Assembly (NCBI GenBank): GCA_029289095.1 | Contig: JARFUG010000032.1 | Span: 1 to 35,697 of the forward strand | Direction of reading: 5' to 3' | DNA from: Desulfuromonadales bacterium | GTDB lineage: Bacteria; Desulfobacterota; Desulfuromonadia; Desulfuromonadales; JACZKF01 | DNA: 35,697 nucleotides | Shown here: in pieces, positions 21,453 through 35,697 of the stretch | Numbering within the stretch: the first letter of the stretch is position 1 | Layout of the letters: each line of letters begins with the position of its first letter | Translations under genes and position numbers: made by a program | Notes under the pieces: generated by a model | Database searches by the model: none | The model's input: only the letters and a program-made list of their open reading frames with translations | Told to the model about the DNA's origin: nothing

Positions 21453-22784
21453 ATGAATCCGTTCTGGACCAGGCTCCTGCCCGCATTTCTGCGCGCCAGG
21501 CTGGAGGGCCGGCACTATCTCCAGAATGTCGTCACCAACACCGGGTGGCAGTTCGCCGATCATATCGTTCGGATGGGAGTCGGCCTGCTGATCGGCATCT
21601 GGCTCGCCCGCTACCTGGGACCGGAGGAGTTCGGCCTTTTCAGCTACGCCCTGGCCTTTGTGGCCCTTTTTTCCGCGTTGGCATCACTGGGGCTCGATGA
21701 TATCATCGTGCGCGACATCGTCGGGGAGCCCGGGCGTAAAGACGAAATCCTCGGCTCTGCCCTCGCGCTGAAGCTACTCGGCGGAGCAATGTGCCTTGCG
21801 GCGGCGACCCTCACGATTTTCTTGCTGCGCGAGGACGCCATAAGCCGGTGGCTGGTCGTCATTTTCGCGGCGGGGTCCGTTTTCCAGGCTCTGAATGTTC
21901 TGGAGTTCTGGTTCCATTCGCAGGTTCAGGCGAAATACGCGATATTTGCCAGGAACACGGCTTTTCTCGCCTGCGCACTGATCAAAATTGCCTTGATTCT
22001 CGCCGGGGCGCCCCTGATCGCCTTCGCCTGGATCGCCCTGGTCGAGGTCGCCGCGGGGGGCGCGGGACTTATCATCGCCTATCGGCTCAGGGGACATCGC
22101 TTCTCGAAGCTACGGATCCGGCTCGACAAGGCGGGCGCCCTGCTCAAGGACAGTTGGCCCCTGATGCTCTCGGGGGTGATGGTCGCCATCTATCTGCGCA
22201 TCGACCAGGTCATGCTGGGACAATTGGTGGGCGATGAAGAGGTCGGGATCTATTCGGTCGCGGTGCGCCTGGCGGAAGCCTGGCTCTTCATCCCGGCTGC
22301 AGTCTACTGGTCGGTTTTCCCGGCGATCGTCGAAGCCAGAGCGGCAAGTGAAGAGCTGTTTCTCGAGCGGCTCCAAGGCTTTTACAATCTCATGACCTTC
22401 TCGGCGTACGCCATCGCCGTGCCGACAACGCTTCTGGCGCAATGGCTGGTCCCCTTCCTCTTCGGAGAGGCTTACGCCCGGGGGGGGATCATGTTGGCGC
22501 TTCTGATCTGGGCGAATGTCTTCGCCAGTCTCGAGATTGCCAGGAGCTCTTTTCTGACGGCCATGAACTGGACGCGCCTCTACCTGGTGACCGTTTCCCT
22601 GGGATGCGTTCTGAATATTGCCCTCAATCTCGTGCTCATCCCCCTTTACGGCGGCATGGGGGCGGTCATCGCCTCCCTTGTCGCTTACTGGTTTGCAGCC
22701 CACGGCTCGTGTTTTCTCTTCAAGCCGCTTTTTCAGACCGGTGCGATGATGACAAGAGCGATCGTTTACCCGAAGATCTGGTGA
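21453..22784 (+). CDS. Wzx-type oligosaccharide flippase
   Basis: The 443-residue protein has around twelve hydrophobic helices and the polysaccharide-transport (RfbX/Wzx, MVF superfamily) N-terminus: NVVTNTGWQFADHIVRMGVGLLIGIWLARYLGP, then EEFGLFSYALAFVALFSALASLGLDDIIVRDIV. It should move lipid-linked oligosaccharide units across the inner membrane for assembly on the periplasmic face. It is the first gene of a ten-gene plus-strand run and ends 49 bp before the C-methyltransferase gene. No strong Shine-Dalgarno precedes the ATG. No Wzy polymerase is seen in the window. Confidence 0.92.
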   Translation: MNPFWTRLLPAFLRARLEGRHYLQNVVTNTGWQFADHIVRMGVGLLIGIWLARYLGPEEFGLFSYALAFVALFSALASLGLDDIIVRDIVGEPGRKDEILGSALALKLLGGAMCLAAATLTIFLLREDAISRWLVVIFAAGSVFQALNVLEFWFHSQVQAKYAIFARNTAFLACALIKIALILAGAPLIAFAWIALVEVAAGGAGLIIAYRLRGHRFSKLRIRLDKAGALLKDSWPLMLSGVMVAIYLRIDQVMLGQLVGDEEVGIYSVAVRLAEAWLFIPAAVYWSVFPAIVEARAASEELFLERLQGFYNLMTFSAYAIAVPTTLLAQWLVPFLFGEAYARGGIMLALLIWANVFASLEIARSSFLTAMNWTRLYLVTVSLGCVLNIALNLVLIPLYGGMGAVIASLVAYWFAAHGSCFLFKPLFQTGAMMTRAIVYPKIW

Positions 22785-22833
22785 AGTCTTCTCGAATGAT
22801 TGATCCCGCATCGAAGACTCAGGAGACCTGAGC

Positions 22834-24057
22834 ATGAAGACGTGCAGACTCTGTACGAGCCTGGATTTGAGGAAGTTTCTCGACCTCGGGTTCACCCCTC
22901 CGGCCGACGGCTTTCTGCGAAGAGAGCAGTTGCAGGAGCCGGAGACATGGTACCCGCTCGAGGTGATGGTCTGTCTTGCCTGCGGCTTTGTGCAACTCAG
23001 CCATGTCGTCTCGCCGGAAGTCCTCTATCGGCACGACTACCCCTACGAATCGTCCACGACCCGCTCCGGCCGGCGCCATTGGGGGGAGTTCGCCGAGACG
23101 GTGAGCCGCCGTCTCTCCCTCGGAAGCGAAGACCTGGTCGTCGATATCGGCAGCAATGTCGGAGTGCTGCTGAGCGCCTTCAGAGATAACGGCGCCCGGA
23201 TTCTCGGGGTCGACCCGGCCAGCAACATCGTGCGGATCGCCGAGAAGCGCGGGGTCGAAACTCTCAACGATTTCTTCGGCATCGAAGTGGCGAAGCAGAT
23301 CGTCGCCGATCGGGGAAAGGCGTCGGTCGTCACCGCGACCAACGTCTTCGCCCATGTGAACGATCTGCATGCCTTCGTGAGGGCGATCGACATCCTGCTC
23401 AAGGACAACGGCGTCTTCATCTTCGAGGCGCCGTATTTCGTGAACCTCCTCAGGCTCCTGGAATACGACACGATCTACCACGAGCACCTCTCCTATCTCT
23501 CCGTCAAGCCGCTGGCGCCGTTCTTCGAAAAGTTCGGCATGGAAATCTTCGACGTCGAGGAAAGGGATATCCACGGCGGCTCGTTTCGGGTCTATGTCGG
23601 CCGCAAGGGACGACTGGAAGTGTCCGAGGCGCCCGCGAAGATGATCCGGGCCGAAGAGGAACTGGGGATCTACACTCCGGAGGTGCTCGACCGCTTCGCC
23701 GCAGCCGTGGAGGAAAACCGCCGGGCCCTGACGTGGATGCTCAGGAGTCTGAAACACGAGGGAAAGAAGCTCGCCGGGGTCAGCGCGCCGGCCAAGGGGA
23801 TGACGCTGTTGAACTACTGCCGGATCGGCACGGAGACCCTCGATTTCATCACCGAGAAATCTTCCCTCAAGATCGGCAGGTTCACCCCGGGGATGCACAT
23901 CCCCGTCTATTCGGACGATGCCCTGCTGGAGAGGATGCCCGACTTCGCCCTGCTGCTGGCATGGAATTTCGCGGAAGAGATCATGGAAAATCTGTCGGAA
24001 TACCGCAAGCGGGGAGGGAAGTTCATCATTCCCGTCCCCATGCCGAGAATCGTATAA
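22834..24057 (+). CDS. Sugar C-methyltransferase (TylCIII/NovU type)
   Basis: The 407-residue protein has the three-part architecture of NDP-sugar C-methyltransferases. An N-terminal zinc-binding domain has Cys pairs CRLC and CLAC (MKTCRLCTSL ... MVCLACGFVQL) and the FTPPADGFL segment. A SAM-binding domain follows with VVDIGSNVGVLL (D104 region), EAPYFVNLL and the YHEHLSYLS motif. A C-terminal domain contains GVSAPAKGMTLLNYC. Known members add a methyl to C3 of a 4-keto-hexose in dTDP-sugar pathways. Here it starts the sugar-tailoring block and is 15 bp ahead of the cupin. I infer that the exported glycan carries a branched, C-methylated sugar. The precise substrate is not deducible. Confidence 0.9.
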   Translation: MKTCRLCTSLDLRKFLDLGFTPPADGFLRREQLQEPETWYPLEVMVCLACGFVQLSHVVSPEVLYRHDYPYESSTTRSGRRHWGEFAETVSRRLSLGSEDLVVDIGSNVGVLLSAFRDNGARILGVDPASNIVRIAEKRGVETLNDFFGIEVAKQIVADRGKASVVTATNVFAHVNDLHAFVRAIDILLKDNGVFIFEAPYFVNLLRLLEYDTIYHEHLSYLSVKPLAPFFEKFGMEIFDVEERDIHGGSFRVYVGRKGRLEVSEAPAKMIRAEEELGIYTPEVLDRFAAAVEENRRALTWMLRSLKHEGKKLAGVSAPAKGMTLLNYCRIGTETLDFITEKSSLKIGRFTPGMHIPVYSDDALLERMPDFALLLAWNFAEEIMENLSEYRKRGGKFIIPVPMPRIV

Positions 24058-24072
24058 AAGAAAGGCGCTGAA

Positions 24073-24468
24073 ATGATCCTGAAAGCCATAAAGCCCGTCT
24101 TCGCGGATGAGCGCGGGGAAATCACCGATATCGTCGAAAACGAGCTCTTCGATTCGCTGACCGTCCTCACCACCCGAAAAGGAGCGGTGCGCGGCAACCA
24201 TTATCACAAGGAAACGACCCAGTACACCTATGTTCTGGAAGGAAGATGCCGGTATTTCTATCGCAAGCCGGGAGAGGGCGTTTCGAGTGAAGTGGTCGGG
24301 AAGGGGGATCTCATCGTTTCACCCCCTCTTGAAAGCCACGCCTTCCAAGCCATGGAAGACGCGGTCCTGCTGGCGTTCTGCAAGGGACCTCGGGCCGGAA
24401 CCCAATACGAAACCGACACCTTCCGCCTCGAAGAACCCCTCGTCGTCGCGGAGGGAGAAGGCGAATGA
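24073..24468 (+). CDS. Cupin protein, possible sugar ketoisomerase or epimerase
   Basis: This 131-residue single-domain cupin has its first metal/catalytic motif at RGNHYHKETTQYTYVLEG (H43, H45) and a second at PPLESHAFQAM. The RG-H-H-K pattern is shared with FdtA/QdtA-type 3,4-ketoisomerases (RGFHAHK). RGNHYH also resembles the C-terminal cupin of CapF/WbjC dehydrogenases. In either case it works on nucleotide sugars. It lies between the C-methyltransferase and the aminotransferase (4-bp ATGA overlap with the latter). A keto-isomerisation before transamination fits the context. Confidence 0.75.
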   Translation: MILKAIKPVFADERGEITDIVENELFDSLTVLTTRKGAVRGNHYHKETTQYTYVLEGRCRYFYRKPGEGVSSEVVGKGDLIVSPPLESHAFQAMEDAVLLAFCKGPRAGTQYETDTFRLEEPLVVAEGEGE

Positions 24469-25592
24469 GGCGGATCCCGGTCGCCCAACCTCTGCTCGGC
24501 GCCAACGAACGTGAAAAAGTGCTGTCGGCTCTCGATGCGGGGGCGATCTCCGGGGCTTTCGGGGAGTGGATCGGCCGCTTTGAGCGGGAATTCGCTGCCT
24601 ATTGCGACTGCGCCCACGGCGTGGCGGTCTCCAGCGGCACCGCGGCCCTCCACGTCGCTCTGGCCGCCCTGGAGATCGGGCCGGGGGACGAGGTGCTCGT
24701 CTCGACCCTGACGAACATGGCGACCTTTTTCGCCGTGCACTACACGGGGGCGACCCCGCTCCCTATCGACATTGAGCCCGACACTCTGAACCTTGATCCC
24801 CGCCTGCTTGAAGGGAAGGTGACCGAACGGACGAAGGCGATTGTGGTTGTTCACCTGTTCGGGCATCCGGTGGACATGGACCCCGTCCTCTCCGTCGCCC
24901 GAAAACACGGACTTTTCGTCGTGGAGGACTGCGCCGAGGCGCACGGCGCGCAGTACCGCGGGAAGCGCGTTGGAGGACTCGGCCACATCGGCTGCTTCAG
25001 CTTCTACGCCAATAAGGTCATCACCACCGGGGAGGGGGGGATGTGCACCACCGACGACCCTGTGCTGGCCGAACGGATGCGTTCCCTGAAATCACTGGCT
25101 TTCGGCGGCGAAAACAAATTCATGCACGCCGGAATCGGTTTCAATTACCGGATGACCAATCTCCAGGCCGCCATCGGCTGTGCGCAGCTCGAAAAGATTT
25201 CCGCTATTCTGGAGATGAAGCGCGAGATCGCCGGCGAGTACAATCGTCTCCTGGGCGGATGCCCGGATCTGCTGCTGCCGGTGGAGAAGGACTACGCCCG
25301 CAATATCTACTGGATGTACCACATCGTATTGCGGGGAAGAGCCTCGGGGGGGCGCACCGACCTTATGGCGAGGCTCGCCGAGGATGGGATCGAAACACGG
25401 GAAACCTTTATCCCCTACACCCTCCAGCAACACCTGCCGCTCCCCGAGGGGGTTGGTCCGGCAGACTGCCCCGAGGCCGGGAAGGTCGCCTTTTCTGGCT
25501 TCTATCTCCCTTCGGGTCCCGAGATCGACCGTGGCGACATCGCCTTTGTCGCCGATCGCCTGCTTCACGCCATTGATTCCGTATCGTTGTAA
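24465..25592 (+). CDS. DegT/DnrJ/EryC1-family PLP sugar aminotransferase
   Basis: The 375-residue protein has the family signature: start IPVAQPLLGANEREKVLSAL, VSSGTAALHVALAALEIGPGDEV, VVEDCAEAHGAQYRGKRVGGLG, CFSFYANKVITTGEGGM with the presumed PLP lysine K184, and GFNYRMTNLQAAIGCAQLEK. It should convert a keto-nucleotide sugar to an amino sugar with glutamate. It is most like perosamine-synthase-type members by eye, but the position of amination (C3 or C4) is not determinable. It overlaps the cupin by 4 bp and is 17 bp ahead of the methyltransferase gene. Confidence 0.93.
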   Translation: MRRIPVAQPLLGANEREKVLSALDAGAISGAFGEWIGRFEREFAAYCDCAHGVAVSSGTAALHVALAALEIGPGDEVLVSTLTNMATFFAVHYTGATPLPIDIEPDTLNLDPRLLEGKVTERTKAIVVVHLFGHPVDMDPVLSVARKHGLFVVEDCAEAHGAQYRGKRVGGLGHIGCFSFYANKVITTGEGGMCTTDDPVLAERMRSLKSLAFGGENKFMHAGIGFNYRMTNLQAAIGCAQLEKISAILEMKREIAGEYNRLLGGCPDLLLPVEKDYARNIYWMYHIVLRGRASGGRTDLMARLAEDGIETRETFIPYTLQQHLPLPEGVGPADCPEAGKVAFSGFYLPSGPEIDRGDIAFVADRLLHAIDSVSL

Positions 25593-25609
25593 AACAAGGC
25601 TGATCGCCG

Positions 25610-26380
25610 ATGAGCAAGATCTTTTCCGACTATTCCGAAATCTACGATCTGCTGTACGAAGACAAGCCCTACGGCGAAGAGGCCCGGTTCGTCTCCGATC
25701 TCATCGCCAGGTTCTCTCCGGCTGACGGCGGAAGGCGCATCCTGGATCTGGCGTGCGGAACCGGGCGGCACTGCTTCGAACTCGAAAAGATGGGGTATGT
25801 CGTAGAGGGGAGCGATATTTCCTCCGAGATGGTCCGCATGGCGGAGCAGGCCGCCAGACAGAGGGGGAGTCGGGCGGTATTCCACAATTTTTCCTTCCAG
25901 AACGCCCCCCGCCTCGGAAAAACCTTCGATGTGGTCATCTCGATGTTTTCCGCCATCGACTATCTTGTTGAAAATTCAGAGGTCGTCCTGGCTCTAAAGA
26001 ATATAGCTTCACTTCTCCCTCCCGGCGGACTGTTCATCTTCGATTACTGGAACGGCAATGCGGTGGTCAGGGACTTCTCGCCGGTCAGGGTTATGAAAAA
26101 GGAGAAGGATAACCGGGAGGTCATTCGAATTTCCCGAACCACCCTCGACAAGGTGCGCCAGGTCGCCCATGTCAATTTCCAGTTCCTCTACCTGGAAGGG
26201 GGGGTGAAAAAAGGGGAGTTCAGCGAGGACCACCATGTACGCTACTTCTTCTTTCGGGAGATCGAGGCCTTGTTGGAGCAGTGCGGCTTCGAGCTGCTCT
26301 ACCGAAGCGGCTTCATGGCGCAGGCGCTCTGCGAGGACGACTGGAACATCGCCGTTGTCGCCAGAAAGAAGGGGGGATGA
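25610..26380 (+). CDS. SAM methyltransferase, TylM1/DesVI-like (candidate amino-sugar N-methyltransferase)
   Basis: The 256-residue class I methyltransferase has FSDYSEIYDLLYEDKPYGEEA, motif I ILDLACGTGRH (44-54), GSDISSEMVRMA, FDVVISMFSAIDYL and PPGGLFIFDYWNGNAVV. The order and spacing follow DesVI/TylM1, the dimethyltransferases that make desosamine and mycaminose from 3-amino sugars. Next to an aminotransferase it most likely methylates an amino sugar. The 4-bp ATGA overlap with the first GT4 gene couples tailoring to transfer. The family is large, so another small-molecule substrate remains possible. Confidence 0.8.
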   Translation: MSKIFSDYSEIYDLLYEDKPYGEEARFVSDLIARFSPADGGRRILDLACGTGRHCFELEKMGYVVEGSDISSEMVRMAEQAARQRGSRAVFHNFSFQNAPRLGKTFDVVISMFSAIDYLVENSEVVLALKNIASLLPPGGLFIFDYWNGNAVVRDFSPVRVMKKEKDNREVIRISRTTLDKVRQVAHVNFQFLYLEGGVKKGEFSEDHHVRYFFFREIEALLEQCGFELLYRSGFMAQALCEDDWNIAVVARKKGG

Positions 26381-27576
26381 AGAAGATCGGTCTCTTTCTG
26401 GAAGCCCAGCCGCATATCGGCGGCACTTTCCAGTACAACCAGACGATTCTCGATGCCGTCGCCGCCCTGCCGAAGGAGCGCTTCTCCGTCGTTGTCGGCT
26501 ACACGTCCAACGTCTGGCGCGAGCACCTCAAGGGATATGAAGGGGTGAGCGCTGTCCAGATTCCGCGCGGATTCTGGGGACGGGCGATCGGGCTCGCCTG
26601 GCTCCTCCTTCGGCTGCCCATGGGGCCGTGGAGGGCTCTCGTTCCTTACTTCCATCCGATGGCCAAGGCAATGCTCAGGGAAAAATGCGACCTGTGGATT
26701 TTCCCCTCGCAGGATGCGCGCAGCTTCCAGATCCCCGTTCCCGCCCTGGTGACGGTCCTCGACGTCGTCCATCGCTATGACGGGCGCCGCTTTCCCGAGG
26801 CGGCCTCGAGGTGGGAGCTTCTCTACCGCATCCCCACCTACAAGAACATCTGCCGCTGGGCCAGATCCCTGATCGTCCTCTCCGAGATCGACAAACGGCA
26901 GGTTATCGACTCCTATCACACCCGCGAGGACCGCCTTCACGTGATGCCCATGGTGGCGCCGTCCTATATCTGCTCGGCCCGGACGTCGGAAGGCTTCGAT
27001 GAAAGATACCGTCTTCCGGAGAAGTTTTTCTTTTATCCGGCGCAGTTCTGGGAGCACAAGAACCACAAGAATATCCTTCGGGCCATGGCGTCGCTGAAAC
27101 CGGAGATCCCCGATCTGAAGTTCGTTTTCGTCGGGGGAAAGAAGAACGCCTGGGATTCGGTTGACAGGCTTATCGACGAACTCGGCCTCCGGGATGATGT
27201 CGTTCTCCCCGGCTACGTCCCGGACGCAGACATCCCCGAGTTCTACCGCCGCGCCAGGGCGCTGATCTACGCCAGTTGCTACGGCCCGACCAACCTCCCG
27301 CCGCTGGAAGCCCTGCATCTCGGTTGCCCCATGGCCCTGGCGGAGGTCACGAGCATGCCGGAGCGCATCGGCGATGCGGCGCTCGTCTTCCACCAGGACT
27401 CCGTTGCGCAGATGGCCGAGTGCATGCGGGCGCTTTGGACCGATGACGATCTGTGCGCTCGGCTCTCGGAGAACGGTAAAAGGAGGGCGGCGCAGTGGGG
27501 ACAGGAGGCGTTCAACGGGCGACTCCGGGAGATCGTGGAGCGCCTCGTTAACGAGGAGCCTGCACCGCAGTCATGA
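26377..27576 (+). CDS. GT4 glycosyltransferase 1
   Basis: I take ATG 26377 (MKKIGLFLEAQPHIGG), which overlaps the previous stop as ATGA and has a G-run Shine-Dalgarno; an upstream in-frame start lies inside the methyltransferase gene. The protein is 399 residues with GT-B fold: TYKNICRWARSLIVLSEIDKRQVI, FFFYPAQFWEHKNHKNILRA, LPGYVPDADIPEFYRRARALIYAS, then GPTNLPPLEALHLGCP. The last segment holds the family E of the E-x7-E motif region. It is an alpha-type retaining transferase building the repeat unit; donor and linkage are unknown. Confidence 0.9.
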   Translation: MKKIGLFLEAQPHIGGTFQYNQTILDAVAALPKERFSVVVGYTSNVWREHLKGYEGVSAVQIPRGFWGRAIGLAWLLLRLPMGPWRALVPYFHPMAKAMLREKCDLWIFPSQDARSFQIPVPALVTVLDVVHRYDGRRFPEAASRWELLYRIPTYKNICRWARSLIVLSEIDKRQVIDSYHTREDRLHVMPMVAPSYICSARTSEGFDERYRLPEKFFFYPAQFWEHKNHKNILRAMASLKPEIPDLKFVFVGGKKNAWDSVDRLIDELGLRDDVVLPGYVPDADIPEFYRRARALIYASCYGPTNLPPLEALHLGCPMALAEVTSMPERIGDAALVFHQDSVAQMAECMRALWTDDDLCARLSENGKRRAAQWGQEAFNGRLREIVERLVNEEPAPQS

Positions 27577-28712
27577 AAGTAGGCGTCTTCACATACGGAA
27601 TCCACGGCGTCCGCATGACGGGGATCGCCCGTTACGCGGTGGAGTTGACGCGGGCGATGGCCAGGCTCGACCCGTCGCTGGAGATCGTCCTGCTCAACCC
27701 CTATCCCGAATCGCAGCACCCCTGGTACCGGGAGTTCCCCACACATCCGCTGCCGCATCTGAACCTTCTCCCCCTGGCCGCGACGGTGGGGAACCTGGAA
27801 CTTCACCGGACCGCGACCCGCCTCAAGCTCGACATCCTGCACGATCCCTGCGGCATCGCCCCCTTCCTGGCTCCCCGGGGCAGATATCGGAAAGTGACGA
27901 CCATTCACGACACTCTCCCGGCGGTTTATCCGAAGACACAGCCCCTTCTCACCCGCATCGTCTTTTCGACTCTCGTCGCCCGCGCCGGGGCGACGAGCGA
28001 CGCCATCCTCACGGTCAGCCGGACATCGGCGGATGACCTGTGCCGCTATTACGGCTTCGCGCCTGCCAAGGTTCACGTCACTCCGAACGGCGTTCACCGG
28101 GCAGTCCGACTCTCGCCTGCGCTGCTGCGCGCCACCTTCGAGCGCCTCGGCGTGCAGCAGCCATATTTTCTCTACGTGGGGGCCTTGCACCCGCGCAAGA
28201 ATATCCGGCGCGTCCTCGAGGCCTTTCGAAAACTGCGGGAATTTCATCGCGAAGCGTCCCTTGTGATTGCCGGTCCCCCCTCGTGGGGCGCCCATGGCGA
28301 ACTCAAGGCCGTTCTCGGTTCTGCGGGGGGGCAGAGCGGCATCGTCTTCACCGACTTTCTCTCCGACGACGACCTGAATTCCCTTTACCAGGGCGCCCAT
28401 GCCCTGGTCTTCCCTTCTCTTTACGAAGGGTTCGGACTTCCTGTTCTCGAGGCGATGAGTCACGGCGCCCCGGTCATCACCTCGAACGTGAGCGCCCTTC
28501 CGGAGGTGGCCGGGGCTGCCGCTCTGCTGGTCGATCCGACATCGGTCGAGGCCATCTTCACGGCCATGGCCCGGTTGATCGAAGACCTTCCCCTGCATGC
28601 CGAACTGAGGCGCAAGGGGTTTGAGCGGAGCACGGAATTCACCTGGGAAAAAACCGCTGCCGGGACCCTCGAAATATACGAGACACTCGTCGGGAAGGGC
28701 TCGGGGAGTTGA
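27573..28712 (+). CDS. GT4 glycosyltransferase 2
   Basis: The 379-residue GT-B protein starts MKVGVFTYGIHGVRMTGIARYAVEL. Landmarks are VTTIHDTLPAVYP, AILTVSRTSADDLCRYYG, FLYVGALHPRKNIRRVLEAF and VFPSLYEGFGLPVLEAMSHGAPVI, with the E-G-F-G-L-P-x-x-E donor motif intact. It has a 4-bp ATGA overlap with GT4-1 and a 1-base TGATG overlap with GT4-3. The substrate is not known. Confidence 0.93.
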   Translation: MKVGVFTYGIHGVRMTGIARYAVELTRAMARLDPSLEIVLLNPYPESQHPWYREFPTHPLPHLNLLPLAATVGNLELHRTATRLKLDILHDPCGIAPFLAPRGRYRKVTTIHDTLPAVYPKTQPLLTRIVFSTLVARAGATSDAILTVSRTSADDLCRYYGFAPAKVHVTPNGVHRAVRLSPALLRATFERLGVQQPYFLYVGALHPRKNIRRVLEAFRKLREFHREASLVIAGPPSWGAHGELKAVLGSAGGQSGIVFTDFLSDDDLNSLYQGAHALVFPSLYEGFGLPVLEAMSHGAPVITSNVSALPEVAGAAALLVDPTSVEAIFTAMARLIEDLPLHAELRRKGFERSTEFTWEKTAAGTLEIYETLVGKGSGS

Positions 28713-29920
28713 TGGACGGAGAGCGGAGCAACAATAAGCGATTGAACGTTCTGATCGTGATCCCCTATTTCATGCCTGCCGTCGGATACGGGGGGCCTGT
28801 CCGGGTTTCTTTCGATATCGCCAGAGGTCTTGTTTCCAGGGGGCATAAAGTGACCGTCGCGACGACCGACGTCCTGGACGAGGGACGCAGGGTCTCTTCA
28901 ACCGAGGAGTGGATCGAGGGAATCAGGGTCGTGCGGTTCCGCAATTTCAGTAATGCGTTAGCCAAGAAGATGAACGGCTATCTTCCGCTTCTGTTCATCC
29001 CCTGGATGATGAAAAACGCCCGGAGATTCGACGTCGTCCATTGTCACGACGTCTTTTCCGTTCAGACGGCCGTCTCCGGCATCGCGACCGCGGCCTTCAA
29101 GGTCCCTCTCCTAATTCAGCCGCATGGCTCGCTTTCGCCCGTTCGGCGCTCTGCGCGCTTCTCCGGGATCAAAAAGCTCTTCATCGGCACTTTTCTCGGG
29201 GTCCTCAGGCGGGCCAGCTACTTCATCGCCTTGACGCGGGAAGAGAAAAAGGCGATACAAACGATCGTGAACGGGGATTCCGGCAAGATCGCCATCGTCC
29301 CCAACGGGCTTGACCCTGAGCGCTTTCTTGGCATCGATGAGACCGATCTGCATTCCAGGTACGGCATCCCGAGGGGAAACCGGATCATCGGCTTCGTCGG
29401 AAGGGTCGCCTATATCAAGGGGCTCGACATCTCCCTGGACGTGCTGGCCAGGCTGAAAGAGCGCCATGCTTTCACCTTTCTCGTCATCGGACCGGATGAA
29501 GGGGAGACGGCGCGCCTCAGAAGACGGGCCGAGGCTCTGGGACTCGCAGGAAGGGTTGTTTTTGCGGGGATTCTCGACGGAGAAGAGAAGCTGCGCGTCA
29601 TGAGGTCCTGCGATCTGTTTCTTTTCACCTCGCGGGACGAAGGGTTGCCGATGACCGTTCTTGAGGTCGCCGCCCTTGGAAGACCTCAAGTCCTCTCCAG
29701 GGAGTGCAACGTTCCGGAGGTGGAAGAATACGGGGCCGGATACATTCATGCGCTCGAGGACGTCTGCGCGCTGGAGCAAAGTGTCTCATCGATTCTGGTT
29801 GACGACGCTCTCCGGGCAAGACTTGGTGACAATGCCCGAAGAATGGTGCGGGAGAGATTCGATGCTCGCAAGGTGCTCGACTGCATGGAAAAACTGCTGA
29901 CCGAAAGCGCCGCGTCATGA
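28712..29920 (+). CDS. GT4 glycosyltransferase 3
   Basis: ATG 28712 forms a TGATG stop-start junction with the previous gene and has GGGGAG just upstream. A TTG at 28709 would add one residue. The 402-residue GT-B protein shows YFMPAVGYGGPVRVSFDIARGL, DVVHCHDVFSVQTAV, LLIQPHGSLSP, IGFVGRVAYIKGLDISLDVL and LFLFTSRDEGLPMTVLEVAALGRP. In the last, E-G-L-P-x-x-x-x-E is the donor site. It is coupled to the GT2 gene by ATGA. Confidence 0.93.
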   Translation: MDGERSNNKRLNVLIVIPYFMPAVGYGGPVRVSFDIARGLVSRGHKVTVATTDVLDEGRRVSSTEEWIEGIRVVRFRNFSNALAKKMNGYLPLLFIPWMMKNARRFDVVHCHDVFSVQTAVSGIATAAFKVPLLIQPHGSLSPVRRSARFSGIKKLFIGTFLGVLRRASYFIALTREEKKAIQTIVNGDSGKIAIVPNGLDPERFLGIDETDLHSRYGIPRGNRIIGFVGRVAYIKGLDISLDVLARLKERHAFTFLVIGPDEGETARLRRRAEALGLAGRVVFAGILDGEEKLRVMRSCDLFLFTSRDEGLPMTVLEVAALGRPQVLSRECNVPEVEEYGAGYIHALEDVCALEQSVSSILVDDALRARLGDNARRMVRERFDARKVLDCMEKLLTESAAS

Positions 29921-30714
29921 GAAGAGCGCCTTCCATATCGATCGTCATGCCGAGTTACCAGCAGGCGTCCTTTCTGGAGGAGGCTGTGCGCTCGGTCCTC
30001 GATCAGCAGGGGGTCGATGTCGAGCTCCTCGTCATGGATCCCGGTTCAACGGACGGTTCGCGGGAACTGCTGCTGGCGCTGAAGGAGGACTACGGCGACA
30101 GACTGCAGCTTCACTTCGCCCCCGACGACGGCCAGGCGGACGCCGTCAACCGGGGGATGGCCCTGGCGAAGGGGGAGATTCTGGGCTGGCTCAACTCCGA
30201 CGACCGGCTGCGCCCCGGCGCCCTGTGCACCATCGCCTCCTGTTTTTCCTGCGCCGATCCCCGTTGGGTGTACGGTCGCTGCGGCATTATCGATGAGGAG
30301 GGGCGCCAGATCTCGCGGCCCATCGTCTGGTACAAGAACATCCGGGGGCGGCGATTTTCCTTTTACAAGCTGCTGACCGAAGATTTCATCCCGCAGATGG
30401 CCACATTCTGGACCCGCTCCCTGTGGGAGGCCTCCTGCGGTCTCGACAAAAATCGGCATCTGGCAATGGATTACGATCTGTTCCTGCGATTCGCGCGAAT
30501 TGCAAGGCCTCTGGAGCTCGACTCCTACCTTGCGGATTTCAGGGTGCATCGCGATGCCAAAAGCAGTCGCAGGGTCGCTGCACACATGGACGAAGCCTTC
30601 CGTGTCGTCTGCGAGCATGCCGCCGGTCTCGGCTGGCGTGGAAAGCTTTGCCTTGTCCTTCACCGCGTCTACGCGGCAAGGACGAAACTGATCTACCGAC
30701 TGGTCAAGCCGTGA
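29917..30714 (+). CDS. GT2 glycosyltransferase
   Basis: The 265-residue GT-A protein has SIVMPSYQQASFLEEAVRSVL at the N-terminus, MDPGSTDGS, and the DxD-type metal site WLNSDDRLRPGAL. A catalytic-base region MDYDLFLRFAR follows. No membrane segments are seen. It probably acts as an inverting transferase in the same repeat-unit pathway. It overlaps GT4-3 by 4 bp and is followed by a 45-bp gap. Confidence 0.92.
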   Translation: MRRAPSISIVMPSYQQASFLEEAVRSVLDQQGVDVELLVMDPGSTDGSRELLLALKEDYGDRLQLHFAPDDGQADAVNRGMALAKGEILGWLNSDDRLRPGALCTIASCFSCADPRWVYGRCGIIDEEGRQISRPIVWYKNIRGRRFSFYKLLTEDFIPQMATFWTRSLWEASCGLDKNRHLAMDYDLFLRFARIARPLELDSYLADFRVHRDAKSSRRVAAHMDEAFRVVCEHAAGLGWRGKLCLVLHRVYAARTKLIYRLVKP

Positions 30715-30759
30715 ATCCGATCCCGTCTGTCGCCATTCTGCACTCTGGAGATTGAGTCG

Positions 30760-31845
30760 ATGCCGCATCCTTTCATGTTCGACCGCATCCAGATATTTTC
30801 CCTTCTTTTCAGTCTTTTCATCTTCCTTTTCATCTTCAGCCTCGTGAAGAACAAGCGCATGCGGGAGGAGTACTCCATCCTCTGGTTTGCCATGAGTCTT
30901 TTTCTCCTTTATCTCTCTGTCGATCGCTTCGCCATCGACAGGCTGGGCGCTCTTTTCGGCATCGCCTATCCACCGAGCGTTCTGACGCTGATGACCACCG
31001 GATTCACCTTCCTGCTGCTCATCCATCTGACAGTGGTCGTCACCCGACTCTCCGAACAGAACAAGGAGTTGATCCAGGAGATGGGGCTCGGCCGAACCGA
31101 AGGCACAAAAAGAGGGGATGGCATTCTTGTGATCGTCCCTGCCTACAATGAGGAGAAGAGCATCGGAAAAGTAATGGAGGATCTGCGCAGTCTTCAGATT
31201 CCCATCGATATCCTCGTCGTCAACGACGGATCCGTGGACGGAACTTCACAAGTTTCACGATCGACGGGGCGGGCGATTGTCGTCGACTTGCCGAAAAACC
31301 TCGGCATCGGTGGAGCCGTTCAGACGGGATTCAAGTATGCAGCCAGAAACGGCTACGCAACCGCCGTGCAGTTCGACGGAGACGGCCAACATCTGGCGGC
31401 GCAGATTCCCAGGCTGTTGAATGCGCTGGAAGAGCATGATGCGAATGTCGTCATCGGCTCGCGATTTCTCGATGAACGCAGCGGCTATCGCTCGACATTC
31501 ACCCGAAGAATCGGAATCCGGATCTTTCAGTTCCTCAATTCTCTGCTGATTCGGCAAAGGGTGACGGACAACACCTCCGGTTTCAGGGCGTACGATCGCA
31601 ATGCCATCGAGTTTCTGGCGCTCCATTACCCGGTTGATTATCCCGAGCCCGAGGCCGTGATTCTGCTTGGGCGAAACGGCTTCAAAATCGCCGAAGTCGC
31701 CACGCAGATGCGTGAGCGACAGGGGGGAGGTTCCTCCATCGCCGGGGTCAAAGGACTCTATTACATGATCAAAGTAATATTGGCGGTTCTTATGACCGCT
31801 TTGCGAAAACCGATCCTCCCCCCTCCGAGACGGAGCGATTCTTAG
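30760..31845 (+). CDS. DUF2304 - GT2 (polyprenyl-phosphate sugar synthase-like) fusion
   Basis: Residues 1-110 form a DUF2304-like unit of three membrane helices (about 7-28, 37-53, 72-95) ending in a coiled segment (LSEQNKELIQEMG). Residues 120-361 are a DPM1-like GT2 domain: VIVPAYNEEKSI, LVVNDGSVDGT, NLGIGGAVQTGFKYA, D205/D207 in FDGDGQH, VIGSRF and DNTSGFRAYDR. In most genomes I know, DUF2304 and this GT2 are adjacent separate genes, with the GT2 first. Here they are one reading frame with DUF2304 first. The likely product is a polyprenyl-phosphate-linked hexose made at the inner face of the membrane, a donor for GT-C enzymes such as the one encoded at 19495-21378. It is the last gene of the run. 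Confidence 0.85.
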   Translation: MPHPFMFDRIQIFSLLFSLFIFLFIFSLVKNKRMREEYSILWFAMSLFLLYLSVDRFAIDRLGALFGIAYPPSVLTLMTTGFTFLLLIHLTVVVTRLSEQNKELIQEMGLGRTEGTKRGDGILVIVPAYNEEKSIGKVMEDLRSLQIPIDILVVNDGSVDGTSQVSRSTGRAIVVDLPKNLGIGGAVQTGFKYAARNGYATAVQFDGDGQHLAAQIPRLLNALEEHDANVVIGSRFLDERSGYRSTFTRRIGIRIFQFLNSLLIRQRVTDNTSGFRAYDRNAIEFLALHYPVDYPEPEAVILLGRNGFKIAEVATQMRERQGGGSSIAGVKGLYYMIKVILAVLMTALRKPILPPPRRSDS

Positions 31846-32335
31846 TCACTTGCGTTCGCCGCCAGCCGGTCACGGCCTTGGCAGATCCTCCCGGTTGTTT
31901 CCTGTTTCTTCATTCGCGCGCATCCGGTTTTTTGAAAATTCACCATCAGTCCGGTTCCTTTAAAAGAAATAGTAATTCCCTATTGTTACGATGACATTGT
32001 CTTTGGCTCGAATTCTGCTAGAGCGATGCTGCCGTGCTTCTGAATTTTTGTTCCTGTGAAGAATAGTTATCACCGCTTCGGGAAAAATCTCGGCAATTTC
32101 CCGGGGTCCGGAACCAAGCGTGCTTATGCACATGCCTTGGTGCACGTTAAAGCGCGTACCCCCTACGCTCATTGACGGCATCGGCCTGCAGACCGCTCTG
32201 ACAAATTGGCGGCCGAGGCGAAAAACGAGCGGTCGCGCCGGGCGTCTCAACGACGTAAACAGCGACAAGACCAGCAGAATGTGCCACTAAACCAAAAAAA
32301 GTTGTATCCGACCCCCACACAGAAGGAGAAAACAC
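31846..32335 (+). other. 490-bp leader upstream of the 16-heme cytochrome
   Basis: No gene is visible. Notable content: a hairpin with outer stem CCAAG/CTTGG and inner GTGC-ttat-GCAC at 32114-32140, the interleaved stems at 32181-32234, and a Shine-Dalgarno AAGGAG at 32323-32328, 7 nt before ATG. It must also contain the end of the polysaccharide operon transcript; I found no clear terminator for it. Confidence 0.6.
32181..32234 (+). promoter_or_regulatory. Candidate H-type pseudoknot in the cytochrome leader
   Basis: TCGGCC (32181-32186) is complementary to GGCCGA (32211-32216). GACCGCTC (32191-32198) is complementary to GAGCGGTC (32227-32234). The two perfect stems (6 and 8 bp) interleave in the order A-B-A'-B', which is pseudoknot topology or two mutually exclusive folds. 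It ends 101 nt before the start codon. Confidence 0.45.
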
Positions 32336-35182
32336 ATGCCAGGGAAGAAACTCTTACGATTAACCGCAGCGCTGCTCTCTGCAGCAATGCTCTGGGGCTG
32401 CGGCGGCGACTCCAGTTTCGATGTGGGGGGCGGGTCAAGCGCAGAGCCCCAACGTCTGGGAAGCAGATCCTGCATGATCTGCCACTCATCGGTTGTGACA
32501 ATGGACCTGTGGAACGGTTCGGCCCACGATTTCCATAATTCACTTACGGCCGGGTGTGAAGGGTGCCATGGAGGAGGTGAATTCCATCGCGGTCTTGGCC
32601 CGATTCCAGTGCCGTCACCGAGTCTCGTCCATTGCAGTCAGTGTCATGACCTGGCTACGCATGCCGGTGACGATCCGACCACAGCGGCTGCGATCGAAGG
32701 ATATGTGCTGGACAATCCCCAAGGAGAGGGCTGCCTTTCATGCCATTCCGCCAAGGATCCGCAAGTCAGGAACTGGAACCATAATCCGGCTCCGACCACC
32801 ATTCACCAGGAATGGGCCAAGTCGGCCCATGGCGGGTTCATCAAGATCGTCAAGGCCGATAACCCCGATGCTGCAGTCACCAGTGATATCGCACCTGGCT
32901 GGGTGAGATACAATTGGGATGCGGCAAACCGCGCTGACTGCCAGCGTTGCCATACGGCCACCGGCGCGATGAACTACCTCAATAACCCTGCAGTTTATGA
33001 ACCGGCAAACAACAATTTCAGCCATCTTTCCGGCTGGACGTCATCTGCCGGTTCGCCGCAGAACGAAATGCTTTACTGCTGGGGATGCCACAGCGATGTG
33101 GGCTCCGGCGAGCTGCGGAATCCGGGGGCATTGAACATCAGCCTCAGCAACAATGCCCAACTCATCTTCAATGACCTTGCGCACTCCAACGTCTGCGTTT
33201 CCTGCCACAGCGGTCGTGCAAGCGGCGAAAGCATCAAGAATCGCGCGGAGGATGATTTCGGCGATCTGAGTTTCATCAATTCCCATTATCTTCCCGCTGC
33301 CGGCACGGTATACAACAACATCGGTTATCACTATGACGGCCAGAGCTATGCTCAGGGGTTTCATAAAAACGTCGGTGCTGAGAACGGTTTCGCTACAGGC
33401 GCCGCGGGTTCCTGCGTTGCCTGTCACATGAGCGGCCCCGAACCTCACACCTTCCAGGCTTCGGTGGCCAGCACCTCCTGCGTCAATTGCCATGGCGGGC
33501 TGACTGAGCAGGTTCTCGTTGCTGTCAAAGACGAATTCCGCGTCGCCCTGGACGAGTTGAAGATCGCCCTGGAAGCGAGGGGGATCTACTACTATCCGGC
33601 ACATCCCTATTTCTTCAATGTCAGGGTCACGCCAGAAAACGCCGGGACGACGGCGGTGGCCGCCAATGCGTTCAGGAACTGGAACGGCGTGAACGTCGGC
33701 GCCGGACTGGAGCCCGTTACCGGAAAAGGCAAGGATGTGATGGGCGCAGCCTTCAACTACAACCTGCTCAAGCACGAGCCCGGCGCCTACGTTCACAACA
33801 AGCAGTACGCCCTGAAGCTGATCGCCGACTCCATCGACTTTCTTGCTGATGGCGCCGTCGACGGTCTTGGAATACCCGATGCCGTTACGGAGGTTATCAA
33901 CAGCACCCTCTTTGCCGACATGACCAGCCACGGCCCCGCTACGCTCGTCAACCCCAATGCCACCAACTGCAGCGTCTGCCACACTGCCGTGCCCCATTAC
34001 AACGGGACCAACGCCCAGTATTACCAGTTCCCAAATACCACCGCTTTCCTCAATGCCGAGGTCTCCTGCGGCCAGTGTCACGCCGGCGGAGATTTCGATG
34101 TGAATCGCGACATCCTTTCAGAATATGCTGAATCTCGACATGGCGCTGCCGTCAATATCCCAGGTCAGACCGCCGCCAATACAATCTGGCGCGGGGGCAA
34201 CACCACAAACGCCGGATGCGCCGTCTCCTGCCATGACAGCGGACAACTCATCCTCTTCCTGAGCAATGGAACCGCTCCGACTTCTAATATCGTCGGTACG
34301 ACCACAACCGGGAACACGCAACGAAAGACCTTGTCCTGCAACGCCTGCCATACCAGCCTGCTCACCGGGGCCGTCCGCACGCAGGCCAACGGGAGTGAGA
34401 CCGTAACGATCACGGTTCCAGGTTCCAACCCGCTTCTTTCCGCCACGTTCGCCAATTTCGGTTCGTCCCACGTGTGCGTCACCTGCCATAGTGCCGGCAG
34501 GGGTCAATGGGGCGCCTCCATCACCAGCGCCACGGTCAGCATCCCTGCGCCCCACGCGCTGCCCCAGGGTCTGACGTTGACCGGAAAGCTCGGCTACCAA
34601 TTCCCCGGACAGACATATCCTGTCGGTGCACATCAGGGGATCGGCGGCGCCGGCGGCCCATGCGTAACGTGCCACATGAGCGGCGATGCCGGTCATACCT
34701 TGAAGGCGGTTGACAAGAATACGATCGGCACGATCACTGCCGTCAACTTCGACACCACTGCGTGCCTCTCCTGCCATTCAGACATGGGTGTCGATAGGCT
34801 GAACGACGGCAAAGAGGCCTTCCAGGATGCCCTTGACGCTCTCATTGCGGCTCTGGCTGAGAAGGGGGTGACGGCCAATGCAGCTTTCAGCACCTTCACT
34901 TACAGGTCCAATGCCGGAACGAACCTGAATCTCACAAGTGCGGCTAACTGGAATACCTTCATTTCTGAACGTTATTCCACCGCTGATCCTCCGGTGGCCA
35001 GGCAGGACCTGGTCGGTGCGATGTTCAACCTGCGGATGTTCATGAATTCGCGCTACGATCGAGCCGCCTACGTACATAACTGGGAGCATGCGCTTACTCT
35101 GATTGCACATTCCATCGATCTTGTCGGGGATGGAGCCATCAACGGAACTCCGAACGTCGCCTACGACCTGCTGTCGCGTTAG
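32336..35182 (+). CDS. Multiheme c-type cytochrome lipoprotein, 15 CxxCH + 1 CxxxCH, internally duplicated
   Basis: The 948-residue protein has a signal peptide and lipobox LWGC (MPGKKLLRLTAALLSAAMLWGC). CxxCH sites begin at residues 46, 74, 100, 133, 202, 248, 287, 360, 382, 545, 578, 668, 714, 776 and 810. A CAVSCH (CxxxCH) site lies at 628. Residues about 247-512 and 667-935 are diverged copies of one module: four heme motifs spaced alike, a CVxCHMSG motif with HTF/HTL, and a heme-free tail. The tail reads DALxxLIxALExxG ... GAxFNxxxxxxxxxAYVHNxxxALxLIADSIDxxxDGAxxG. It is predicted to be an outer-membrane or periplasm-facing electron carrier. It is distinct from the OmcA/MtrC family. No porin partner is seen. 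AAGGAG supports the start, and it is transcribed alone between a long leader and a strong terminator. Confidence 0.92.
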   Translation: MPGKKLLRLTAALLSAAMLWGCGGDSSFDVGGGSSAEPQRLGSRSCMICHSSVVTMDLWNGSAHDFHNSLTAGCEGCHGGGEFHRGLGPIPVPSPSLVHCSQCHDLATHAGDDPTTAAAIEGYVLDNPQGEGCLSCHSAKDPQVRNWNHNPAPTTIHQEWAKSAHGGFIKIVKADNPDAAVTSDIAPGWVRYNWDAANRADCQRCHTATGAMNYLNNPAVYEPANNNFSHLSGWTSSAGSPQNEMLYCWGCHSDVGSGELRNPGALNISLSNNAQLIFNDLAHSNVCVSCHSGRASGESIKNRAEDDFGDLSFINSHYLPAAGTVYNNIGYHYDGQSYAQGFHKNVGAENGFATGAAGSCVACHMSGPEPHTFQASVASTSCVNCHGGLTEQVLVAVKDEFRVALDELKIALEARGIYYYPAHPYFFNVRVTPENAGTTAVAANAFRNWNGVNVGAGLEPVTGKGKDVMGAAFNYNLLKHEPGAYVHNKQYALKLIADSIDFLADGAVDGLGIPDAVTEVINSTLFADMTSHGPATLVNPNATNCSVCHTAVPHYNGTNAQYYQFPNTTAFLNAEVSCGQCHAGGDFDVNRDILSEYAESRHGAAVNIPGQTAANTIWRGGNTTNAGCAVSCHDSGQLILFLSNGTAPTSNIVGTTTTGNTQRKTLSCNACHTSLLTGAVRTQANGSETVTITVPGSNPLLSATFANFGSSHVCVTCHSAGRGQWGASITSATVSIPAPHALPQGLTLTGKLGYQFPGQTYPVGAHQGIGGAGGPCVTCHMSGDAGHTLKAVDKNTIGTITAVNFDTTACLSCHSDMGVDRLNDGKEAFQDALDALIAALAEKGVTANAAFSTFTYRSNAGTNLNLTSAANWNTFISERYSTADPPVARQDLVGAMFNLRMFMNSRYDRAAYVHNWEHALTLIAHSIDLVGDGAINGTPNVAYDLLSR

Positions 35183-35198: not shown

Positions 35199-35236
35199 AA
35201 AATTACGGGCGAGGCATTCGCCTCGCCCGTAATTTT
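35199..35236 (+). terminator. Strong terminator of the 16-heme cytochrome
   Basis: AAAATTACGGGCGAGGC (35199-35215) is perfectly inverted at 35220-35236 around a 4-nt loop. The descending arm ends in TTTT. It starts 17 bp after the stop, and its A/T flanks make it potentially bidirectional. Confidence 0.92.
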
Positions 35237-35674
35237 CGCGCAGAGCGCGACGCCTGGTTCAACCAGAATCCTCCGAAAGGCAGTGGTGTTTTCACGGCAA
35301 TTTCAGTTTCCTGTTTTTTGAATGGGCTCCTCTTCTCAGACATTCACTCTTCCGGAAATGATGGAAGAGGTTTTCCAGGATTGGCCTGATAACTGCAAAA
35401 ACGATTCTGCTGTGCGCACTTATCCCCTCTTTCGTGAAGAAAAATTATGTAGCATCTCTCCCCGAAGAGCGATGAATGCTGCGTGAACGCATTGTGCTGA
35501 TGTGGTTATGCACAGTGGCGACCGCCCGTCAAAACACGTATGCCATACGCCATTTGGCGAAAATTGAGTGATCTTTTCCGGCTTATTGGAGGGAACGCCT
35601 TTGTTTTTTTCAATGCCGACAGGCTCATCTGATGGCCTAACAGGCTTATCCACGAACGTGAAGAAGGAGGCAAC
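35237..35674 (+). other. Leader of about 440 bp before the next gene; no gene seen
   Basis: The stretch is AT-richer than the genes. It contains an imperfect hairpin CATTGTGC/GCACAGTG near 35490-35518 and a CGCC-ATTT-GGCG palindrome at 35548-35559. The ribosome binding site AAGGAGG lies at 35664-35670. Short ORFs here have no supporting features. Confidence 0.5.
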
Positions 35675-35697
35675 ATGAAGATTTGGCAGGGGATGAT
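35675..35697 (+). CDS. Start of a gene cut by the window edge
   Basis: ATG 35675 follows AAGGAGG by four bases and encodes MKIWQGM before the window ends. The Lys-containing start could open a signal peptide, and the position after a long leader mimics the two cytochrome genes. Another exported cytochrome is a guess only. Confidence 0.6.

Follow-up and report, generated by a model that had tools for sequence, protein, structure and literature searches.

OcwA from Thermincola, a terminal reductase with nine hemes on the cell surface (PDB 6i5b; PMC6703420), and OmhA, the S-layer undecaheme cytochrome of Carboxydothermus ferrireducens (PMC7829351), have made it evident that Gram-positive bacteria respire solids with NrfA-type cytochromes that are unrelated to MtrC. 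OcwA has been assigned to a subclade whose nonahemes come from Gram-negative bacteria (PMC7829351), and in Geobacter the porin-cytochrome conduits (OmcB, ExtABCD; PMC6148476) bring together an outer-membrane barrel, a periplasmic multiheme cytochrome and a surface lipoprotein cytochrome in one cluster. Here we describe a 16-heme protein encoded near the end of a contig of 35,697 nucleotides from a Desulfuromonadales bacterium (hereafter 'the window', that is, the whole stretch of DNA analysed), and compare it with each of these systems.

The protein resembles OcwA in that (i) 6i5b is the best PDB chain for the whole sequence (phmmer, E 1.9e-4), (ii) an NrfA-type core ends in a helix bundle, with a role in extracellular electron transfer that is here predicted, and (iii) its first half likewise carries nine hemes. 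However, OcwA has a single core and belongs to a Gram-positive organism, whereas the protein described here has a lipobox, a second seven-heme core and a CX3CH site. OmhA, also linked to extracellular electron transfer, differs similarly, having 11 hemes, one core and a Gram-positive host; 6qvm, which from its organism and heme number would be OmhA, turns up in the structure comparison with Z 5.0 over 123 residues. With NrfA and the octaheme nitrite reductases (TvNiR) the protein shares a collinear four-heme block and C-terminal helix, but it differs from them by its 16 hemes, its lipobox and its apparent conduit operon. The same clustering as in the Geobacter conduits is seen among its homologues, although the barrel and most of the 10-heme proteins found here match no NCBIfam model of that conduit kind. 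The single-unit relatives with 12–13 hemes from Desulfobacterota (L010, L006, L008) have the LWGC lipobox, the CExCHGGG motif, the same four-heme block and the HN tail, but only one four-heme-plus-tail module and no CX3CH. What is new is thus that the heptaheme core is doubled and carries a conserved CX3CH site, and not the kind of protein, since Gram-negative nonahemes near OcwA have already been noted (PMC7829351). We found no experimental work on the 16-heme protein or a close relative, and no description of it in the literature on CX3CH/CXXXCH maturation and on NrfA-like surface lipoproteins in Gram-negative bacteria.

Heme sites and internal duplication

The open reading frame at 32336-35182 on the plus strand is a real gene for a protein of 948 residues. 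A motif scan confirms the 16 heme sites claimed in the preliminary description: 15 are CxxCH (residues 46, 74, 100, 133, 202, 248, 287, 360, 382, 545, 578, 668, 714, 776 and 810), and the sole CxxxCH site is CAVSCH at residue 628. The only cysteine outside these sites is Cys22 of the lipobox. The features of the locus are as follows.

32240..32290, plus strand: what is left of a 10-heme cytochrome gene at its 3' end (GRLNDVNSDKTSRMCH, then stop), its last CxxCH now SRMCH; 85% identity to the junction on contig C82
32336..35182, plus strand: 16-heme lipoprotein cytochrome, 948 residues, 2+7+7 hemes; open reading frame with 15 CxxCH and 1 CxxxCH, and an orthologue (G071) with the same 16 sites
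32336..32401, plus strand: signal peptide and lipobox LWGC with Cys22, from the sequence; the same LWGC recurs in many relatives
32471..32569, plus strand: the N-terminal hemes CMICH (46) and CEGCH (74), neither of them part of the repeat, from the motifs; CEGCHGGG aligns with CEQCHGPG of OcwA
32633..33892, plus strand: repeat A, hemes 100, 133, 202, 248, 287, 360 and 382 with helical tail; self-alignment and profile-profile alignment
32939..32953, plus strand: CQRCH heme 202, positional counterpart of the NrfA catalytic heme 1 (CxxCK); the four-heme block that follows it aligns with NrfA hemes 2-5
33494..33892, plus strand: helical tail A, AYVHN...LIADSID; profile match to the NrfA C-terminal helix
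33968..35167, plus strand: repeat B, hemes 545, 578, 628 (CX3CH), 668, 714, 776 and 810 with helical tail; self-alignment and profile-profile alignment
34217..34234, plus strand: CAVSCH (CX3CH) heme site, paralogue of CQRCH 202; conserved in the G071 orthologue, CxxCH in G057 and G134
34778..35167, plus strand: helical tail B, AYVHN...LIAHSID; self-alignment and profile match
35675..35697, plus strand: first bases of an outer-membrane barrel gene (MKIWQGM...), which runs off the contig; Shine-Dalgarno sequence and MKIWQG start common to the barrel genes of relatives

Self-alignment pairs residues 241-519 with 661-944 (32% identity, 115 bits, E 2e-34), and its local score of 337 compares with a maximum of 103 in 500 shuffles in which the heme Cys and His were held fixed. 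The heme-free tails alone score 142 against each other (maximum of 50 in 1000 shuffles). A duplication had been proposed before and is thereby borne out, but its unit is larger than the four-heme module then envisaged: when profiles of the two halves, built from four homologous 16-heme proteins, are aligned with each other, collinearity extends from heme pair 100/545 through to the C-terminus (score 471, E 6.6e-65). For the upstream part of the repeat the single sequence gives weak support, with 40 of 1000 heme-fixed shuffles scoring as well. The paralogous heme pairs are 100/545, 133/578, 202/628, 248/668, 287/714, 360/776 and 382/810, so that, as judged from these alignments, the repeat unit is seven hemes plus a helical tail, the overall layout is 2+7+7, and site 628 lies inside the duplication as the paralogue of CQRCH 202. 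Likewise, the heme-free tail of some 120 residues that had been pointed out does exist, but as two tails of about 130 residues, one in each copy.

The duplication is not a recent internal event: repeats A and B do not pair as sisters in any of 200 bootstrap replicates of the module tree (0%), and repeat A is about 55% identical to modules in other genomes as opposed to 35% to repeat B. Hence, the two units either diverged long ago or were joined. The nearest named relatives carrying the module, within the partial collections searched, belong to Desulfuromonadia and other Desulfobacterota. Much larger relatives also occur, with 25, 24 and 22 heme sites and one or two module copies (L030 4048-8892, L031 3341-8800 and L032 11950-16362, respectively). 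The series of 13, 16, 22 and more hemes suggests that the module number grew by duplication or fusion.

Relationship to nitrite reductases and OcwA

A profile of 37 modules from related genomes retrieves from the PDB, at ranks 1-19 (distinct sequences), penta- or octaheme nitrite reductases exclusively (E 7e-8 to 6e-3), and MtrC/MtrF chains are absent up to E 1. Heme-to-heme alignment matches the last three hemes of the block with hemes of the CAQCH, CADCHMP and CLNCH types in TvNiR, and in the same alignment AYVHN...DSI falls on the C-terminal helix of the nitrite reductases. Profile-profile comparison scores 71 for NrfA, as against 46 for a decaheme control and 17 for reversed NrfA, and the heme-free tail matches that of NrfA at the collinear place with a score of 23, where the best of 60 column shuffles reaches 13.7. 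The NrfA family model PF02335 is absent from the whole-protein scan at E 0.1 and reaches E 1e-4 at best against single modules. No CxxCK is present, all 16 sites being CxxCH or CxxxCH; the NrfAs of related genomes do carry CxxCK, and NrfA clades with CxxCH have been reported (PMC8840924).

Two AlphaFold models, built from sequences of the window and of relatives, are weak (mean pLDDT 47 and 50). In a structural second look with these models, all listed rows are NrfA, octaheme nitrite reductases, OcwA or the S-layer undecaheme 6qvm, at Z-scores of 4.4-7.0 that are each below 8 and thus below the level that would convince by Z alone. Foldseek with the model of repeat B, which is weak and derives from nine aligned sequences, gave no match at E 0.001 and is uninformative on the fold. 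The homologous four-heme block and the C-terminal helices nevertheless place the protein in the NrfA/octaheme nitrite reductase/OcwA superfamily. Taken together, the profile, tail-shuffle and structure matches identify the tail, for which no name had been available and which was thought to be perhaps a new domain, as a known one, namely the C-terminal helical part of this superfamily. By comparison with NrfA, the conserved tail His would presumably be an axial heme ligand, and the tail is thus heme-free in sequence only.

The CX3CH site and its counterpart

Starting from the counterpart of NrfA heme 1, the successive heme sites are spaced 46/39/73/22 in repeat A, 40/46/62/34 in repeat B and 38/43/84/31 in NrfA. 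Matched in this way by position, hemes 202 (CQRCH) and 628 (CAVSCH) occupy the place of the catalytic heme of NrfA, and the same argument would equate their position with that of the open heme 5 in OcwA. Each unit may therefore keep one special heme (202 and 628, respectively). Six invariant His outside the motifs are paired between the seven-heme repeats (109/554, 165/602, 317/740, 343/766, 371/787 and 487/914), and counting them suggests that one heme per repeat might possibly be devoid of a distal His, that is, open as in OcwA. OcwA itself has His-His at each of its two open-site hemes, whereas the 16-heme protein has a single His at the place that aligns, albeit tentatively.

Our search for orthologues, which took in 136 genomes of the order, yielded one protein from a different family of the order (in genome G071) that is 55% identical, has the same 16 sites and keeps CAVSCH intact, and two further 16-heme homologues (in G057 and G134) with CxxCH at the position of site 628. 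Across residues 600-660 pN is 0.11, compared with 0.26 for the whole protein; since dS is near saturation, we use this contrast alone. The CX3CH site thus looks selected rather than decaying. We suggest that it arose by insertion of one residue in the second copy, and that heme 628 is most likely attached by the ordinary c-type maturation system.

The preliminary description had raised two other prospects, namely that the CAVSCH site is unoccupied or that a dedicated heme lyase serves it. A degenerate motif, leaving a mature protein with 15 hemes, would be in line with the non-standard spacing and with CxxCH at this place in two 16-heme homologues, but we regard it as quite unlikely given that both Cys, the His and even the intervening AVS are unchanged at 55% overall identity and that the surroundings are strongly constrained; moreover, CX3CH is known in the inner-membrane cytochrome ImcH and its homologues from Geobacter and relatives (PMC6295460), and c-type maturation has been described as tolerating longer spacings (PMC7096707). 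Maturation by a lyase of its own is a most improbable explanation. It draws on the non-standard heme motifs of superfamily relatives, such as CX15CH of MccA and CxxCK of NrfA, for which dedicated systems exist (PMC7096707), but no heme lyase gene is present in the window or in the 13 kb around the G071 orthologue, and PF01578 has three matches each in the organism's own genome, G071, G057 and G134, although the 16-heme proteins of the latter two are without CX3CH. One may also speculate, and we do so with considerable doubt, that each heptaheme unit is a reductase core with a tuning of its own: the additional residue at 628 would change heme geometry or ligation functionally and give repeat B a distinct reactivity or potential. 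In any case, the pair of CQRCH 202 and CAVSCH 628 represents a natural test of how CX3CH spacing acts at a catalytic heme position.

Extended spacings were also encountered elsewhere. A protein of 451 residues (L032 2100-3455, minus strand) has 15 sites including one CX4CH (CLTDTCH) and one CX3CH (CAPGCH), and an otherwise 10-heme protein (L043 14395-16995, minus strand) contains a CX3CH-type site (CTTSCH).

Genomic setting and proposed function

The order barrel, 10-heme cytochrome, 16-heme cytochrome is seen directly in G071, G057 and G134, while many single-unit relatives have barrel, 10 hemes and 13 hemes. The window itself shows only the start of the barrel gene and a remnant of the decaheme gene. 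Positions 32236-32407 share 85% identity with the place on contig C82, from the same genome, where a 10-heme gene ends and a 13-heme gene begins. Of the 10-heme gene upstream of the 16-heme gene only the last codons remain, and in them SRMCH has replaced CRMCH; intact 10-heme genes of relatives end in TCRKCH. A DmsE-like identity of the neighbouring 10-heme protein was considered and dropped, as NCBIfam lends it no support. On the other side, the barrel gene begins about 490 bp downstream of the 16-heme gene and 23 bases before the contig ends. In relatives it encodes a protein of about 410 residues with a C-terminal Phe (alignment), which we call a barrel on account of its sequence pattern and weak porin matches. 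This protein is matched in 27 of 37 relatives and has no match in the organism's own assembly, which fits a gap between the window contig (C145) and C82; a search of the same genome with a relative's decaheme gave no better than E 0.145. We infer that the gap holds the barrel and decaheme genes. The 13-heme relative at the end of C82 (L044, 9280-11683) probably marks the far side of the gap that starts at base 35697 of the window. Fragments of barrel genes lie at contig ends also in genome G001 of the same family (L034, L070-L072), suggesting that several near-identical barrel copies break assemblies.

The lipobox, combined with the neighbouring genes for a barrel and a periplasmic multiheme cytochrome in the three genomes above, marks the surface lipoprotein of a porin-cytochrome conduit; in the window, where the contig end cuts the barrel gene and no intact decaheme gene adjoins, the same link would follow by comparison. 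Together with the precedents of OcwA and OmhA for this fold in extracellular respiration (PMC6703420, PMC7829351), this leads us to propose that the protein is probably the surface electron-transfer lipoprotein of such a conduit, built of tandem heptaheme units of the NrfA/octaheme nitrite reductase/OcwA type behind a two-heme N-terminus. Anchored in the outer membrane by its lipid, it would most likely be exposed at the cell surface and would receive electrons from the periplasmic decaheme cytochrome via the barrel. The electrons would then pass from heme to heme through both units, given the predicted heme occupancy and ligand state, and leave to extracellular acceptors, which may be Fe(III)/Mn(IV) minerals, electrodes, shuttles and, possibly, small molecules.

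Two other identities deserve consideration. An extracellular reductase of nitrite, hydroxylamine or other small molecules, being an enzyme with two active-site hemes in the first place and not a conduit, would be consistent with the homology to NrfA, octaheme nitrite reductases and OcwA and with the His count, by which one heme in each repeat could be short of a distal ligand. However, the lack of CxxCK, the replacement of the NrfA Tyr after heme 3 (CHVEYY) by Arg in the modules (CHxGR; profile alignment), the barrel-cytochrome setting and the presence of canonical NrfA-family genes elsewhere in the genome render this unlikely. That the protein belongs to the OmcA/MtrC family of outer-membrane cytochromes, as a version enlarged to 16 hemes, we hold to be very improbable: although an OmcA/MtrC-type gene is present in the window (16557-18947) and PF22113 (MtrC/MtrF domains II/IV) is the best Pfam match, at 61 bits against a cut-off of 30, module A alone stays below that cut-off with 16.6 bits, TIGR03507 (OmcA/MtrC) does not match the 16-heme protein at E 0.1, the module profile finds many nitrite reductases in place of MtrC/MtrF, and 16 hemes with two helical tails are unlike the decaheme layout.

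The conduit lipoprotein reading suggests that barrel-cytochrome conduits in Desulfuromonadia also use the NrfA-type fold for their surface lipoprotein. This is of practical relevance, too, because automatic annotation gives such proteins MtrC- or DmsE-like names, which would mislead.

Some further observations concern the surroundings of the gene. Just past its stop codon, at 35200-35240, lies an inverted repeat (aaaattacgggcgagg...cctcgcccgtaatttt), reported by a scan on the minus strand only, which is possibly a terminator separating the 16-heme gene from the barrel gene. The OmcA/MtrC-type lipoprotein encoded at 16557-18947 (plus strand) has 10 CxxCH motifs and, after its lipobox, a collagen-like GAPGEPG... 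stretch (PF01391, E 4e-6) that would be an unusual stalk for a surface cytochrome. Finally, a cluster of ten polysaccharide/glycosyltransferase genes at 21453-31845 lies directly upstream of the cytochrome on the same strand.
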